The position numbers were made by a program, and so were the translations under genes. DNA of 64,000 nucleotides from Halorussus vallis (lineage in GTDB: Archaea; Halobacteriota; Halobacteria; Halobacteriales; Haladaptataceae): positions 2,170,001 through 2,234,000 of the forward strand of contig NZ_CP100000.1 in the NCBI RefSeq assembly GCF_024138165.1, written 5' to 3'. Shown here piece after piece: positions 28,020-34,031 of this stretch. Every line of letters starts with the position of its first letter. Position 1 is the stretch's first letter. The notes beneath the pieces were generated by a model. That model ran no database searches. It saw only the letters and a program-made list of their open reading frames with translations, and was not told the DNA's origin.

Positions 28020-28526
28020 TTAGGCCGGCAAAGAGAAGCTAGCGACTTCCTCCTCGTACTTCGAATCCCAGAGTGCCAGCCGCGAGGCAGTCCAGGCCAC
28101 CGGTTCGACCTCCCGCTCGGCGAGCCGCCGAGCCGCCGCAACATCGCCACCGCGAGCCAGCGTCACGTGGGGCGTGTAGTCGTCGCCCTCCATCTCCTCA
28201 ACGGGCGGAAACTCGTCCAGCAGTCGCTCGTGGACCGCGTACAGGCCCGGGCTCTCGACCGCGAGATAGACGACCGGTCCTTCCCCGCGAGTCGGATACT
28301 CGAAGCAGTCGATGCCGGCGAGACGGACCTCGAACGCGGGCGCGCCCGCGAGCGCCGTCCGGACCTGTTCGCGCAGGCGCGCAACTCCGCCTGCGGGGGC
28401 GTCTCCGAGGCGCTTGCAGAGGAGGGTGTGGCGCTCCCGTATCGAGTCGAAGCCGAAGAGTTGGGGGCGAAGCGCCTCGGCGAGGCGTTCGACTTCGCCC
28501 GGAACGGGGACGTTGAGGCTGTACAC
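28020..28526 (-). CDS. 2H-phosphoesterase (2'-5' RNA ligase-like)
   Basis: A 168-residue protein with the two HxTx motifs of the 2H superfamily, spaced in the usual way: H33-T-L-L (in RERHTLLCKRL) and H120-V-T-L (in DYTPHVTLARG). These enzymes act on 2'-5' or cyclic phosphate ends of RNA. The substrate of the haloarchaeal members is not defined. The length is typical. It is transcribed away from the argG region. Confidence 0.85.
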   Translation of the reverse strand: MYSLNVPVPGEVERLAEALRPQLFGFDSIRERHTLLCKRLGDAPAGGVARLREQVRTALAGAPAFEVRLAGIDCFEYPTRGEGPVVYLAVESPGLYAVHERLLDEFPPVEEMEGDDYTPHVTLARGGDVAAARRLAEREVEPVAWTASRLALWDSKYEEEVASFSLPA

Positions 28527-28763
28527 GGTCGAGTTTCGAACGAGACGGCTATGAAAGTGGCGACCGGCCGCGAGCCGGTCAGAAGGGGAACCGAACGTCA
28601 GGGGGACGGAAGTCGAACGTCGTTACAGGCCGCCCGTCGACGGGTCGTTCCCGATGAACATGTCGTAGGTGAGCGTGCGTTGGCTCCCTAAGCACGGTTC
28701 CACACGACCCCGTCCTGACAGAGAACCCCACGCACGGTCGGCAAACCCTGCATAGACGAAAGC

Positions 28764-28895
28764 CATTAATAGGCGAGCCACACTACGCAGTAGCAACGAT
28801 GCAACCTCGCGCCATCGCTGGCACGCCCGCCGAGGCCGCCAGCGGCGCGACTGCGCTCTTCTTCCCGCGACGACGACCGGGGCTTTTCTAGCCCC
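28764..28895 (+). promoter_or_regulatory. argG leader: promoter, Arg-rich leader peptide and hairpin
   Basis: A TATA-like ATTAATA at 28765-28771 is the only clear promoter element upstream of argG, over 240 bp before its ATG. At 28799-28891, about 30 bp after the TATA box, lies a 30-codon open frame whose end is FFPRRRPGLF with three consecutive CGA Arg codons. A hairpin GGGGCT-TTTCT-AGCCCC (28879-28895) overlaps its last codons and stop. This is the layout expected of a leader-peptide attenuator sensing arginyl-tRNA, placed before an arginine-synthesis gene. The function is inferred. Confidence 0.5.
28799..28891 (+). CDS. Putative 30-residue argG leader peptide
   Basis: An ATG-started frame of 30 codons (begins MQPRAIAGTPAEAASG, ends PRRRPGLF) located where a leaderless transcript from the TATA box at 28765-28771 would begin. 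Four of its 30 residues are Arg, three of them in a row just before a hairpin at the stop codon. It has no similarity to a known protein. Its interest is regulatory, as translation speed over CGA-CGA-CGA could report the charging of tRNA-Arg. Confidence 0.45.
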   Translation: MQPRAIAGTPAEAASGATALFFPRRRPGLF

Positions 28896-29016
28896 ACTAT
28901 TACCTAATCCACCGAACCCGTTGGCTTCGCTCTCGACGAGGTCACCCGTATCGTCCGCGAACTGACCCGGAGTCACCAGACACCACATCACCGCGACCCC
29001 ACACATCATCCAACAC

Positions 29017-30285
29017 ATGACAGACCACAACACAGATTCGAAAGTTGCACTCGCCTTCTCGGGCGGACTCGACACCACCGTATGCGTCCCGCTGCTCGAA
29101 GAGGAGTACGGCCACGACGAGGTCATCGGCGTCACCGTCGACGTCGGCCAGCCAGACGAGGAGTTCGCCGAGGCCGAGGAAACCGCCGAGGCGCTCGACC
29201 TCGAACACTACGTCGTCGACACCAAGGAGGCGTTCGCCGACCAGTGTCTCGACGCCGTGAAGGCCAACGCGACCTACCAGGGCTACCCGCTGGGCACCGC
29301 GCTCGCGCGCCCGGTCATCGCCGAGGCCATCCTCGAAGTCGCCGAGGAGCACGACTGCGACGCCGTCGCCCACGGTTGCACCGGCAAGGGCAACGACCAA
29401 CTCCGCTTCGAGGCGGTCTGGCGCGCCTCCGACCTCGACGTCATCGCGCCCGTGCGCGAACTCGGCCTGACCCGCAACTGGGAGATGGAGTACGCCGAGA
29501 AGAAGGACCTCCCCGTCGAGGGCGGCAACGAGGGCGACTGGAGCATCGACACCAACCTCTGGAGTCGCTCGGTCGAGGGCGACGAACTCGAAGACCCCGG
29601 CTACGTCCCGCCGGAGGACATCTACGAGTGGACCGAGACGCCCGGCGGCAAGGACGTCGAAACCATCGAAATCGCCTTCGAGGAGGGCGTCCCCGTCGGC
29701 ATCGACGGCGAGGAGTACGGCAGCGTCGAACTCATCGAGTACCTCAACGACCTCGCGGGGAGCCACGGCGTGGGCCGCACCGACATGATGGAAGACCGCA
29801 TGCTCGGCCTGAAGGTCCGCGAGAACTACGAGCACCCCGCCGCCACGACCCTGCTGAACGCCCACGAGGCGCTCGAAGGCCTCGTCCTCACCGAGGAGGA
29901 GCGCGCGTTCAAACAGCAGGTCGACCAGCAGTGGTCCGAGAAGGCCTACGAGGGCCTGCTGTCGGCGCCGCTCGTGGACGCGCTCGACGGCTTCGTCGAC
30001 GCGACCCAGGAGAAGGTCACCGGCACCGTGACCGTCAAGTTCGAGGGCGGACAGGCCCGCCCGGTCGGCCGCGAGAGCGAGTTCGCGGTCTACTCCGAAT
30101 CGGCCGCCTCGTTCAACACCGAGTCGGTGGGCGACATCGCCCAGGACGACGCGACCGGCGTGGCGAAGTACCACGGCTTCCAGTCGCGCCTGGCCGCCGA
30201 AGTCTCCGAGAACGCCGAGGCGAAGAAGGCCGAACTGCTCGCCGACGGCGGCGAGGACGACGACGAGCAGCATGAGGACGAGTAG
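29017..30285 (+). CDS. argG: Argininosuccinate synthase
   Basis: A 422-residue enzyme that joins citrulline and aspartate using ATP, the penultimate step of arginine synthesis. The N-terminal PP-loop ALAFSGGLDTTVCV and the motifs GCTGKGNDQLRFE, EYAEKKDLPVEGGNEGDWSID and SLWSRS-like NLWSRSVEG identify it. The C-terminus is an acidic tail. It is followed after one base by argH. The mRNA probably has a leader of over 200 nt, since no TATA box lies close to the ATG. Confidence 0.97.
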   Translation: MTDHNTDSKVALAFSGGLDTTVCVPLLEEEYGHDEVIGVTVDVGQPDEEFAEAEETAEALDLEHYVVDTKEAFADQCLDAVKANATYQGYPLGTALARPVIAEAILEVAEEHDCDAVAHGCTGKGNDQLRFEAVWRASDLDVIAPVRELGLTRNWEMEYAEKKDLPVEGGNEGDWSIDTNLWSRSVEGDELEDPGYVPPEDIYEWTETPGGKDVETIEIAFEEGVPVGIDGEEYGSVELIEYLNDLAGSHGVGRTDMMEDRMLGLKVRENYEHPAATTLLNAHEALEGLVLTEEERAFKQQVDQQWSEKAYEGLLSAPLVDALDGFVDATQEKVTGTVTVKFEGGQARPVGRESEFAVYSESAASFNTESVGDIAQDDATGVAKYHGFQSRLAAEVSENAEAKKAELLADGGEDDDEQHEDE

Positions 30286-30286
30286 A

Positions 30287-31750
30287 ATGAGCGAGGAGAA
30301 CGAACTCGCGGGCGACTCGGACGTGGTGCGCCGCGACCGCTTCAGCGGCGGCCCCGCCCGGGAGTTCCTCTCCTCGATGGACGACGACGCGCGCATCTTC
30401 GCCGCGGACCTCGCGGTCGACCGCGCGCACGTGGTGATGCTCGAAGAACAGGGCATCGTCGGCGACGACGAGGCCGCCGCCATCCTCGACGCGCTGGACG
30501 ACGTCGAGGCGGCGGGCTTCGAGGCGCTCCCCGACGGTGAGGATGTCCACGCCGCCATCGAGACGGCTGTCGTCTCGCGGGCGGGCGACGTTGGCGGAAA
30601 GATGCACACCGCCCGGTCGCGCAACGACGAGGTGGCGACCTGCATCCGCTACCGCCTGCGCGAGGACCTACTCGACGCCGTCGAGGCGACGCTGGTCCTC
30701 CGGGGTGCACTCGCCGAGGCGGCGAGCGCGCACGCCGAGACGGTGATGCCTGGTTACACCCACCTCCAGCCCGCACAGCCCACGACCGTCGGCCACTACC
30801 TGCTGTCCTACGAGCAGGCGGTCGCCCGCGACACCGAGCGCCTGCTCGACGCCTACGGCCGGACGAACCGTTCGCCGCTCGGCGCGGCGGCGTTCGCGGG
30901 CACGCCATTCGACGTGAATCGGGAGCGCACCGCCGAACTGCTCGGCTTCGACGGCGTCGTGACGAACTCGATGGACGCCTCCTCGACCCGGGACTTCCTG
31001 TTCGAGTCGGTCGCGGCGCTGTCGAACCTGGCGGTGACGGTGTCGGGCCTCGCGGAGGACCTCGTGGTCTTCTCGAACAAGGGACTGGTCGAACTCTCGG
31101 ACGACTACGCCTCGACCTCCTCGATCATGCCCCAGAAGAAGAACCCCGACACGCTCGAACTCGTCCGGGCGACCGCCGGGGACGCCGCCGCGGGGCTGAA
31201 CGGCCTGCTGACGACGCTGAAGGGCCTGCCCCGCGCGTACAACCGCGACCTGCAGAACGCGACGCCCCACGCCTGGGAAACCGTCGACGCGGTGTCGGAG
31301 GCCGCGGAGGTCGCGGCTGGCGCGGTCGCCACGGCGTCGTGGGACGAGGCGGCGCTCGCCGACGCGGCGGGCGAGGGCTTCTCGACGGCGACGGGGGTCG
31401 CCGACCTGCTCGCGATGGCCGGCGTCCCCTTCCGGAAGGCCCACGAGATGGTGGCCCTCGCGGCGGAGGAAGGCGCCGACTACGCCGCGCTCGACGCCGC
31501 TGCCGAGGATGTGCTGGGCGATTCGCTGTCGGCGTACGTCGAGCGCGAGGCCGTGGAAGACGCGCTCGACCCCGAAGAGAGCGTGGCGATGCGCGACTCC
31601 GCTGGCGGTCCCGCCGCCGAAGCGGTCGCCGCCCAGATTTCGGCCGCCGAGGAGGGCGTCGCCGACGACGAGGACGCCCTCGAGACGAGACGCGGCGCGC
31701 TGGCGGCGGCCGCCGACCGACTCCGGCAGGAGGTGAACAGATATAATTGA
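30287..31750 (+). CDS. argH: Argininosuccinate lyase
   Basis: A 487-residue fumarase/aspartase superfamily enzyme that splits argininosuccinate into arginine and fumarate. The family signature TSSIMPQKKNPD (catalytic Ser loop), KMHTARSRNDEVAT and the motif GYTHLQPAQPTT are all present. I choose the ATG at 30287, one base after the argG stop, over the in-frame ATG at 30272 inside argG. The hairpin GGTCCC-CTCC-GGGACC at about 31759-31774 may end the argGH transcript. Confidence 0.97.
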   Translation: MSEENELAGDSDVVRRDRFSGGPAREFLSSMDDDARIFAADLAVDRAHVVMLEEQGIVGDDEAAAILDALDDVEAAGFEALPDGEDVHAAIETAVVSRAGDVGGKMHTARSRNDEVATCIRYRLREDLLDAVEATLVLRGALAEAASAHAETVMPGYTHLQPAQPTTVGHYLLSYEQAVARDTERLLDAYGRTNRSPLGAAAFAGTPFDVNRERTAELLGFDGVVTNSMDASSTRDFLFESVAALSNLAVTVSGLAEDLVVFSNKGLVELSDDYASTSSIMPQKKNPDTLELVRATAGDAAAGLNGLLTTLKGLPRAYNRDLQNATPHAWETVDAVSEAAEVAAGAVATASWDEAALADAAGEGFSTATGVADLLAMAGVPFRKAHEMVALAAEEGADYAALDAAAEDVLGDSLSAYVEREAVEDALDPEESVAMRDSAGGPAAEAVAAQISAAEEGVADDEDALETRRGALAAAADRLRQEVNRYN

Positions 31751-31922: not shown

Positions 31923-32087
31923 ATGACCGAATGCGTCCAGTGCGGGGACGACGTGACCCTGCACGACGATGCGGAAGTCGGAGAGATAGTCGATTGCACG
32001 ACCTGCGGCGCGGAACTCGAAGTCGTCGACCAGAACCCGCCAGTCCTCGACCGAGCCCCGGAGCTCGAAGAGGACTGGGGGGAGTAA
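31923..32087 (+). CDS. lysW: Amino-group carrier protein LysW
   Basis: A 54-residue acidic carrier with a zinc ribbon (CVQC at 4-7; CTTC at 25-28) and the obligatory C-terminal motif EDWGE. The gamma-carboxyl of its last Glu is the attachment site for the alpha-amino group of glutamate, which protects the intermediate during ornithine (or lysine) synthesis. The acidic surface is recognised by the later enzymes. It is the first gene of the operon and ends two bases before argX. Confidence 0.95.
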   Translation: MTECVQCGDDVTLHDDAEVGEIVDCTTCGAELEVVDQNPPVLDRAPELEEDWGE

Positions 32088-32088
32088 A

Positions 32089-32955
32089 TTGCAGATTGGA
32101 CTGCTCTACTCCCGGATCCGTAAAGACGAGAAACTGCTGCTCGGCGAGCTACGCGACCGCGGCCACGACGTCGTGAAGATCGACGTGCGCAAGCACCAGT
32201 TCGGGCTGTCGGACGGCCCCGACGAACTGACCGAGTGCGACCTCGTAGTCGACCGCTGTCTGGCCACGAGTCGGAGCATCTACGCCACGCAGTTCTGCGA
32301 GGCGTACGACGTGCCCGTCGTCAACTCGCCCGAGACGGCCCAGACGTGCGCCGACAAGGTGAAGAACAGCCTGGCGCTCGAAGCCGCGGGCGTGCCCACG
32401 CCCAACACCGACGTGGCGTTCACCAAGGAGTCGGCGATGGAATCCATCGAGAAGTTCGGCTACCCCTGCGTGCTCAAGCCCGTCGTCGGGTCGTGGGGGC
32501 GGCTGATGGCCAAGATCGATTCGGAGAGCGCCGCCGAGGCGATTCTGGAACACAAGGCAACGCTCGGCCACTACGAGCACAAGGTGTTCTACGTCCAGGA
32601 GTTCGTCGAGAAGCCCGGCCGCGACATCCGCGTGCTGGCGACCGACGGCGAACCCGTGGCGGCGATGACGCGCAGTTCGGACCACTGGCTCACCAACGCC
32701 GCGAAGGGCGGCGAGACGGCCGCGTTCGAACTCGACGACGAGGCTGAGAAACTCGTGAAGGAGGCCAGCGACGCGGTCGGCGGCGGCCTGCTCGGCGTCG
32801 ACCTGATGGAAACCGGCGACTCCTACACCGTCCACGAGGTCAACCACACGGTCGAGTTCAAGGCGCTCAACGACGCCGTCGAAACCGACGTGCCTGCCGC
32901 GGTGGTCGACTGGCTCGAATCGCAGGCCGGCCAGACGGTGGAGGTGACCGCCTGA
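32089..32955 (+). CDS. argX: Glutamate--LysW ligase ArgX
   Basis: A 288-residue ATP-grasp ligase that couples glutamate to the C-terminal Glu of LysW, the committed step. ATP-grasp features visible are KPVVGSWGRLMAKI, YVQEFVEKPGRDIRVLATDG and the metal-binding VHEVNHTVEFKAL. The start is TTG at 32089, one base after the lysW stop, because the family begins Q/K-I-G-L-L-Y-S-R-I-R exactly here. LysX (for lysine) is the homologue. The presence of argF, argG and argH argues for ArgX, although dual use cannot be excluded. Confidence 0.92.
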   Translation: MQIGLLYSRIRKDEKLLLGELRDRGHDVVKIDVRKHQFGLSDGPDELTECDLVVDRCLATSRSIYATQFCEAYDVPVVNSPETAQTCADKVKNSLALEAAGVPTPNTDVAFTKESAMESIEKFGYPCVLKPVVGSWGRLMAKIDSESAAEAILEHKATLGHYEHKVFYVQEFVEKPGRDIRVLATDGEPVAAMTRSSDHWLTNAAKGGETAAFELDDEAEKLVKEASDAVGGGLLGVDLMETGDSYTVHEVNHTVEFKALNDAVETDVPAAVVDWLESQAGQTVEVTA

Positions 32956-34031
32956 TGGCGGTCGAAGGAGAGATAGACGCGGTCGACGCGACCGAGACGG
33001 TCACCGCGACCGTCGTCGGCGCGAGCGGGTTCACCGGCGGGGAACTCCTGCGCATCCTCGCGGGCCACCCCAACGTCGAATTCGCAGGCGCGACCAGCCG
33101 CGAGTACGCCGGCAAGTCGGTCGGCTCGGTCCACCCGAACATGCGCGGGTCCGACCTGCGCTTCACCGAACCCGGCGACCTCGAATCGGTCGACCTGCTC
33201 TTCGCCGCGACGCCTCACGGCGTCTCGATGGAGCACGTCGAGGAGTTCACCGACGTCGCCGACACCGTCGTCGACCTCTCGGCGGACTTCCGCCTGGAAA
33301 CCGAGGAGCAGTACGACGAGTGGTACGACGGCCACGTCGCGCCCGAGTACCTCGAAGAGTCGGTCTACGCCCTGCCGGAACTCCACCGCGAGGAACTGCC
33401 CGGCGCGGACCTCATCGCGGCCGGGGGCTGTAACGCCACCGCGACGCTGCTGGGGCTGTACCCCCTCTTCGACGCGGACATCCTCGAAGGCCAGTCCGAC
33501 GTGGTCGTGGACGTGAAGGTCGGCTCCTCGGAGGGCGGCGCGGGCGCGAGCAAGGCCTCCTCGCACGCCGAGCGCTCGGGCGTCGTCCGGCCGTACGCGC
33601 CGACCGGCCACCGCCACGAGGCCGAAATCGAGCAGGAACTCGGCACCTCGGTGTCGTTCACCGCCCACGCCGTGGACATGGTCCGCGGTGCGAGCGCGAC
33701 CTGCCACGTCTTCCCCGACGAACCGGTTTCGACCGGCGACCTCTGGGGCGCGTTCCGCGGGGCCTACGACGACGAACCGTTCGTCCGGATGGCCGCCGGG
33801 GGAAGCGGCGTCTACCGCTACCCCGAACCCAAGGCGGTCGCCGGGACGAACTACGCCGAGGTCGGTTTCGAAGTCGACCCGACGAACGAGCGCATCGTGG
33901 TCTTCTCGGCCATCGACAACATGGTGAAGGGGTCGGCCGGCCAGGCGGTCCACGCCGCCAACGTCGCGCTCGGCTTCGAGGAGACGGCCGGACTGGAGTT
34001 CCAGGGACTCCACCCCGTGGGGGCGCCGTGA
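32955..34031 (+). CDS. argC: LysW-gamma-glutamyl phosphate reductase (ArgC/LysY type)
   Basis: A 358-residue NADP-dependent reductase that converts the LysW-linked glutamyl phosphate to the semialdehyde. It has the Rossmann motif VVGASGFTGGELLRIL, the catalytic Cys in AAGGCNATATLLGL and the family segment VKVGSSEGGAGA. The start ATG is in the last base of the argX stop (TGATG), so translation is coupled. It has an acidic 13-residue N-terminal arm not needed for the fold. Confidence 0.94.
   Translation: MAVEGEIDAVDATETVTATVVGASGFTGGELLRILAGHPNVEFAGATSREYAGKSVGSVHPNMRGSDLRFTEPGDLESVDLLFAATPHGVSMEHVEEFTDVADTVVDLSADFRLETEEQYDEWYDGHVAPEYLEESVYALPELHREELPGADLIAAGGCNATATLLGLYPLFDADILEGQSDVVVDVKVGSSEGGAGASKASSHAERSGVVRPYAPTGHRHEAEIEQELGTSVSFTAHAVDMVRGASATCHVFPDEPVSTGDLWGAFRGAYDDEPFVRMAAGGSGVYRYPEPKAVAGTNYAEVGFEVDPTNERIVVFSAIDNMVKGSAGQAVHAANVALGFEETAGLEFQGLHPVGAP

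Follow-up and report, generated by a model that had tools for sequence, protein, structure and literature searches.

Attenuation is a textbook form of bacterial gene control, in which amino-acid genes are turned on when that amino acid is scarce. An archaeal example is absent from the literature searched, and no leader-peptide attenuator was reported for archaea in that search, which covered mostly journals outside subscription. This agrees with a preliminary description of a 64,000-nucleotide stretch of the Halorussus vallis genome (the window), which called such systems rarely described in archaea and proposed one of them, an arginine attenuator, upstream of argG. The locus poses the question of whether a short arginine-rich reading frame controls an archaeal arginine operon by the movement of the ribosome that translates it.

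The candidate leader sits between a divergent gene (28020-28526, minus strand), with a weak match to proteins of the RNA 2′,3′-cyclic phosphodiesterase type, and argG (29017..30285, plus strand; NCBIfam NF010392, 5e-198), which encodes argininosuccinate synthase and is the first gene of its operon. The window's ArgG is 85-87% identical to ArgG from named Halorussus species. Downstream on the same strand lie argH (30272..31750; TIGR00838, 2.6e-139), a lysW/argW carrier protein gene (31923..32087; TIGR01206, 3e-17), argX, encoding a LysX-type ligase (32089..32955; TIGR02144, 4e-85), and argC (32955..34031; TIGR01850, 3.9e-111), giving the order argG-argH-lysW-argX-argC. Searches of a plasmid set returned no tblastn match for the leader peptide and none for argG at E<=1e-100.

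All leader features are on the plus strand. The promoter (28757..28771) combines a TATA-like ATTAATA (28765-28771) with a BRE-like CGAAAGCC directly before it. The upstream open reading frame (uORF) of 30 codons, MQPRAIAGTPAEAASGATALFFPRRRPGLF, occupies 28799..28891 including its stop codon TAG (28889-28891); its ATG is 33 nt past the start of TTAATA and 218 nt 5′ of the argG ATG at 29017, and the argG start lies 125 nt beyond the uORF stop. Codons 24-26 are CGA CGA CGA (28868..28876), the proposed arginine sensor, and a hairpin that we call P2, GGGGCT-TTTCT-AGCCCC (28879..28895), follows with its arms at 28879-28884 and 28890-28895, such that the stop codon falls in the loop and 3′ arm. The TATA box, the frame, the CGA run and the hairpin at the stop can be read directly from the sequence, and the preliminary description had located and described them correctly. 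On a single sequence the evidence for such a leader is weak, and it is conservation that decides against chance.

We therefore rely on an automatic test, applied to the 420 nt 5′ of argG, that looks for a frame opened by ATG in which a minimum of 3 of the 8 codons preceding a hairpin of at least 5 bp encode Arg, with a stop near that hairpin. The argG loci comprised the best 80 of 122 from named genomes, a further 29, 20 of the 23 remaining at order level and 20 chosen outside the order. This architecture is present in 111/128 halobacterial argG leaders, compared with 20/1280 dinucleotide shuffles and 65/3053 other 420-nt stretches from the same loci; with at least 2 Arg, the corresponding counts are 122/128, 44/1280 and 116/3053. 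The 128 leaders include near-duplicates (for example L009 and L085) and omit L032, for which upstream sequence is absent. None of the 21 argG leaders outside this set has the architecture, 20 of them being from other phylum groups and one from a divergent member of the order (L133, 59% identical), which has no leader frame and was counted as outside. The preliminary description had made its proposal depend on conservation of the frame and Arg codons in close relatives, and the idea survived: across Halobacteria, the ATG frame keeps its distance from the promoter, and both the in-frame Arg run and the hairpin are retained.

Depending on the criterion, the uORF is retained in 111-124 of the 128 leaders, including those of the genus Haloferax (loci L016, L018, L031 and others), of the halophile recorded as Actinarchaeum halophilum (L049), and of its relative L048. 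Common peptide tails are RRRPGR, RRPGL, RRRAL and RRPRRPG, and three related leaders (L056, L065 and L071) have an Arg-rich frame from which the usual terminal motif is absent. A curated set of 124 leaders leaves out L056, L071, L099 and L100, the last two despite visibly bearing the motif. In L015 and L025 the uORF is extended by GC-rich repeat insertions, with the Arg tail and hairpin retained; no ATG-started frame was found for L025 in the scanned span. An element closer to argG, GTATCGTCCGCGAACT (28948..28963, plus strand), is kept only in eight Halorussus-like leaders, according to an alignment of those eight.

The position of the uORF relative to its promoter is also conserved. Among 119 ATG-started frames, an A/T-rich box begins 30-33 nt 5′ of the ATG in 107, and 12 have no box in the scanned window; only 42/2020 random positions have a box at a comparable distance. 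Because the test took the box nearest 31 nt, the spread comes out one or two nucleotides too narrow. At the box-to-start distance that is usual in archaea, the transcript would start 0-5 nt 5′ of the uORF ATG, and the argG-leader mRNA is thus probably leaderless or nearly so. This constant spacing makes translation of the uORF from a leaderless mRNA probable. A second TATA-like box occurs 24-59 nt before argG in 70/124 curated leaders, and therefore in those other lineages the leader would control one of two transcripts. The window's leader is not among them; its lineage shows no further promoter close to argG, and therefore the entire operon would be under the leader's control. Haloferacales leaders (for example L031, L041, L069 and L074) carry a conserved CTATAGGCATCTCT block 5′ of the second, argG-proximal TATA box, which may be a regulator site.

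The arginine codons themselves show a strong bias. Across the curated leaders, CGA accounts for 353/476 (74%) of Arg codons near the hairpin, but for 11% in 21 window genes and 2% in argG genes, and this disparity indicates selection on the codon rather than the residue. Such a choice of a rare codon is what would be expected where ribosome speed or tRNA supply is the signal, which the pattern suggests, whereas the preference for CGA may instead reflect an effect on RNA structure. CGN triplets 5′ of the hairpin number 496/149/107 in frames 0/1/2, with frame 0 being that of the ATG and stop. Furthermore, in 122/124 curated leaders the start of the last Arg codon precedes the hairpin's 5′ arm by 0-5 nt, and this distance also holds in leaders whose stop is past the hairpin (L012, L013, L020, L030, L036 and L060). 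A pattern search of 13 genomes for more Arg or Ile/Val leaders used an Arg pattern with a gap too short for the window's own argG leader.

The first part of the leader peptide evolves fast with a slight synonymous excess (synonymous fraction.287 in frame versus.217/.231 in the other frames; 60 pairs) and is weakly constrained, making it unlikely that the peptide acts in trans. A short arginine-rich peptide 5′ of an arginine gene, with a recurrent C-terminal RRRPG-type motif, might nevertheless arrest its own ribosome in response to free arginine and repress at high arginine, as the fungal arginine attenuator peptide does. We regard this as very improbable, given a variable N-terminus, last residues that are dictated by the hairpin sequence, selection on the synonymous choice of CGA and the recurrence of this layout at ilvB with Ile/Val and at pheS with Phe. 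The fungal peptide (arg-2/CPA1) acts by its sequence at high arginine; a uORF controls an arginine gene in the fungal case and would do so in haloarchaea, but the fungal uORF has neither an Arg-codon run nor a hairpin over its stop. Assignment to the fungal type, in which the peptide would be conserved independently of codon, was rejected, as the haloarchaeal peptides vary outside the Arg run and prefer CGA.

Two hairpins are predicted within the leader. P1 (28807..28850), in the 5′ half of the uORF, is a possible pause hairpin, whereas P2 is the proposed conditional terminator. When the hairpins were aligned with plain MAFFT, their arms were not brought into line (61.6% of cells paired, with a slid register scoring higher), and permutation of fixed windows was therefore used on 51 non-redundant leaders, with kinship among leaders ignored and with L057, L065 and L107, in which a different hairpin was picked, excluded. 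P1 arms pair better with their own partners than with permuted ones (-22.4 versus -18.1 kcal/mol; 0/2000 permutations as good), and P2 arms, of which 16 stem types occur among the leaders, covary likewise (-12.72 versus -10.71 kcal/mol; 0/2000). Folding z-scores average -1.39 for uORF frames and -0.23 for argG coding controls. In the window, the minimum-free-energy structure predicted for the region around P2 is P2 itself (-12.1 kcal/mol), a hairpin that is unremarkable by itself (z -1.42), while the whole leader folds more stably than 200/200 shuffles (z -3.32). An Rfam search of the window gave a single tRNA at the gathering threshold and no match to the argG leader.

Strong nucleotide conservation around the Arg run would also be seen if the conserved CGACGACCGGGCC block were a transcription-factor site on DNA and the frame incidental. 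That reading is scarcely credible when the arms covary as RNA pairs through the 16 stem types, the Arg triplets are in frame with the ATG and stop, and the ATG keeps a fixed spacing from the promoter.

Directly 3′ of P2 lies a G-free C/T/A tract (28896..28912). Over positions 1-17 after P2 the G content is around 3% in 121 argG leaders, and at most 2 G occur in the 25 nt after P2 in 49% of leaders, as opposed to 0.8% of 6600 random 25-mers. No T run is found 3′ of P2. In a Haloferax volcanii reporter, a T stretch gave 95% termination and a hairpin 59%, the strong terminators of haloarchaea being stretches of T (PMC7237163); archaeal termination is described more generally as relying on U tracts and aCPSF1/FttA (PMC8116511, PMC8716108). 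The missing T run counts against termination at P2, and the result for the tested hairpin lends it indirect support. A nuclease or RNA-binding protein could equally make use of the conserved hairpins and the unpaired G-free tract. In that reading, a stalled ribosome and the hairpins would protect the leader from ribonucleases or lay it open to them, and arginine supply would set the mRNA half-life rather than termination. The Haloarcula-like leaders, with a possible pseudoknot closer to argG, fit this as well. Control of stability or processing nonetheless seems unlikely to us: it explains the fixed short distance from Arg codons to P2 no better than termination does.

The strands of that putative H-type pseudoknot, CCGCCC..GTCGGGT..GGGCGG..ACCCGAC, lie between the uORF and argG in ten Haloarcula-like leaders (L039, L047, L052, L055, L057, L063, L066, L070, L072 and L081), with apparent compensatory changes in L066.

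No antiterminator was found. Pairing of the P1 3′ arm with the Arg run and P2 5′ arm is no better between own partners than between permuted ones (-13.86 versus -14.21 kcal/mol; 1848/2000 permutations as good). Long-range pairing of the Arg run and 5′ arm with the downstream leader was also rejected: it beats shuffles (mean z -0.68), but species-swapped partners do equally well (mean rank 0.496). This bears on translational control, in which the state of the uORF would alter ribosome access to the argG start through reinitiation or refolding. Such control is improbable: the argG start is 125 nt away from the uORF stop in a G-poor region that is unpaired in the predicted fold, and the Arg run and hairpin arms show no covarying pairing downstream, although in single-promoter lineages the lack of a second TATA-like box would place the uORF and argG on one transcript, which is in its favour.

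The reading that we prefer, at a probability of roughly 65%, is that the argG leader is a ribosome-mediated attenuator acting by direct occlusion of the hairpin. That translation of the uORF senses arginine supply in cis is likely; that the result is termination of transcription, brought about by direct occlusion, is more likely than not. In this model a leaderless or near-leaderless transcript begins at the uORF, and P1 may slow RNA polymerase and let a ribosome keep up behind. When arginyl-tRNA is scarce, the ribosome would halt on the rare CGA run, and its leading edge would mask the P2 5′ arm, which begins 0-5 nt further on. Because the stalled ribosome covers this arm, P2 could not form and transcription would continue into argG. 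When arginine is ample, the ribosome would reach the stop codon within P2 and depart, leaving P2 free to form and, with the G-free tract behind it, to promote termination before argG, either intrinsically or through aCPSF1/FttA. Direct masking of this kind would require no antiterminator. Given the size of the ribosome footprint, the P2 5′ arm is within reach of a ribosome on the Arg codons in 122/124 leaders by geometry alone. The uORF translation, ribosome stalling, termination and arginine dependence of this scheme are all inferred from the conserved frame, spacing, codons and structure.

Similar leaders precede other operons. At ilvB, 30 loci were gathered and 24 (L157-L180) examined, of which 22, including the window's own genome (L157), have promoter-spaced frames ending in IIVGA, IVGAL or IIVGV and a hairpin, GTAGGGGC/GCCCCTAC, that spans the stop codon. 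GTA encodes the Val preceding GGG in 22/22 cases and ATT encodes Ile in 25/37; in window genes these codons make up 3% and 10% of those for Val and Ile, respectively. A P1-like pairing is present (0/1000 permutations as good), as is a similar G-poor tract (12% G over 25 nt). Among the exceptions, L154-L156 have no clear motif, L166 has none and L179 carries the variant LVLVGAL; L181-L183 are paralogues under the family cut-off. At pheS, frames of the M(A/P)SEP...GFGFFFA type occur in 21/30 loci (leaders L423-L450; own genome L436). When frames were picked solely for their distance from the promoter, Arg made up 39.5% of the ten C-terminal residues at argG, Ile 13.2% and Val 21.2% at ilvB, and Phe 31.9% at pheS. 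The attenuator-like arginine control of the preliminary description is largely supported, as a reading of sequence, by conservation, the rare CGA bias, covarying hairpins and these parallels at ilvB and pheS.

Around a hairpin 3′ of the pheS uORF, GGTGGAnTCC...GACGAAACC forms an RNA element different from that of argG, possibly kink-turn-like. Rfam searches of seven ilvB and pheS loci gave no match at E<=1.

Promoter-spaced frames are few at carA (5/29 loci), hom (5/26), trpD (3/27), hisG (1/25) and trpE (2/29), and neither the architecture test nor the promoter-spacing scan found a conserved cognate leader at these five genes. In Haloferax mediterranei and H. larsenii, a frame of 23 residues containing Trp-Arg-Trp lies 5′ of a trpS paralogue on a plasmid, and a short frame with Trp codons precedes plasmid trpS at L455, L460, L461, L456-L458 and L462; in some of these leaders GGAAGTGGACA can pair with TGTCCACTTCC at the frame start. 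The length of 23 residues equals that of the frame listed by Babski et al. for H. volcanii trpS HVO_A0127 (PMC4983044). At leuA, 22/30 loci (L244-L273; for example L261 and L264) have a promoter-spaced ATG frame in one constant register relative to LeuA. This frame overlaps a conserved N-terminus in the LeuA frame (EFFQGTL or RIEEVGATRLGAKF), the start codon of which is often missing, with none at all in 4/22. The arrangement resembles programmed +1 frameshifting, for which an Arg codon may be the site (GAT CGA GTT to GAT C GAG TT).

We lean, by a small measure, towards a general haloarchaeal class of amino-acid-sensing leaderless uORFs comprising argG, ilvB, pheS and perhaps trpS2 (Trp). Its members would have rare or cognate end codons and direct hairpin masking with no antiterminator, would couple translation to archaeal termination, and probably evolved independently of bacterial attenuation.

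Short frames in long 5′ untranslated regions of Haloferax volcanii, including those before pheS and a trpS, were reported previously (Babski 2016, PMC4983044). The uORF table of that study contains acidic peptides only, with argG and ilvB absent, an omission that counts against the attenuator reading, and its account of these frames does not link them to codon content or attenuation (PMC4983044). The introduction of the uORF4u paper makes the general statement that uORFs are at work in archaea as well (PMC10219788). The Corynebacterium ilvB-II uORF motif, as described, places a uORF with branched-chain amino-acid codons and an RNA structure before ilvB, with attenuation proposed (PMC10272879). 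The likeness to it is one of description: ilvB-II is bacterial, whereas the haloarchaeal ilvB leader ends in IVG(A/V) with GTAGGGGC/GCCCCTAC over the stop.

The argG leader would be a variant of the bacterial attenuation mechanism, none having been found for archaea in the literature searched. If this is true, archaea couple ribosome movement to regulated transcription termination with a eukaryote-like polymerase and leaderless mRNAs, and amino-acid-sensing leader peptides originated more than once. The leader would also be a natural minimal design, with one decisive hairpin and no antiterminator, that is accessible in Haloferax volcanii.

Among known systems, the enterobacterial trp, his, leu and pheST leaders are ribosome-mediated transcription attenuators, and the haloarchaeal pheS leader is a parallel to pheST. 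Trp-type and argG leaders share a short leader peptide in whose frame codons for the end product form a run, a hairpin inside the leader frame and a second hairpin before the first gene. Clustered end-product codons 5′ of the operon are found in 111/128 argG leaders; the covarying P1 corresponds structurally to the 1:2 hairpin, with a putative pause role; and P2, the candidate for the 3:4 terminator, covaries and is followed by the G-free tract rather than a U run. The argG uORF differs in being archaeal and leaderless, in having its sensor codons just before the second hairpin rather than in the first as in bacteria, and in placing its stop codon within the hairpin. Strict trp-type membership was ruled out by the missing 2:3 antiterminator, and because of this absence the argG leader is classed as working like a trp-type attenuator rather than being one. 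In E. coli pyrBI attenuation, the position of the ribosome blocks the terminator hairpin, and UTP is sensed via polymerase pausing. The argG leader matches this direct-occlusion scheme on geometry, with a footprint that would extend over the P2 5′ arm. Both systems would thus rely on direct prevention of a hairpin by the ribosome with no antiterminator, the signal being UTP in pyrBI and charged tRNA in the proposed argG leader.
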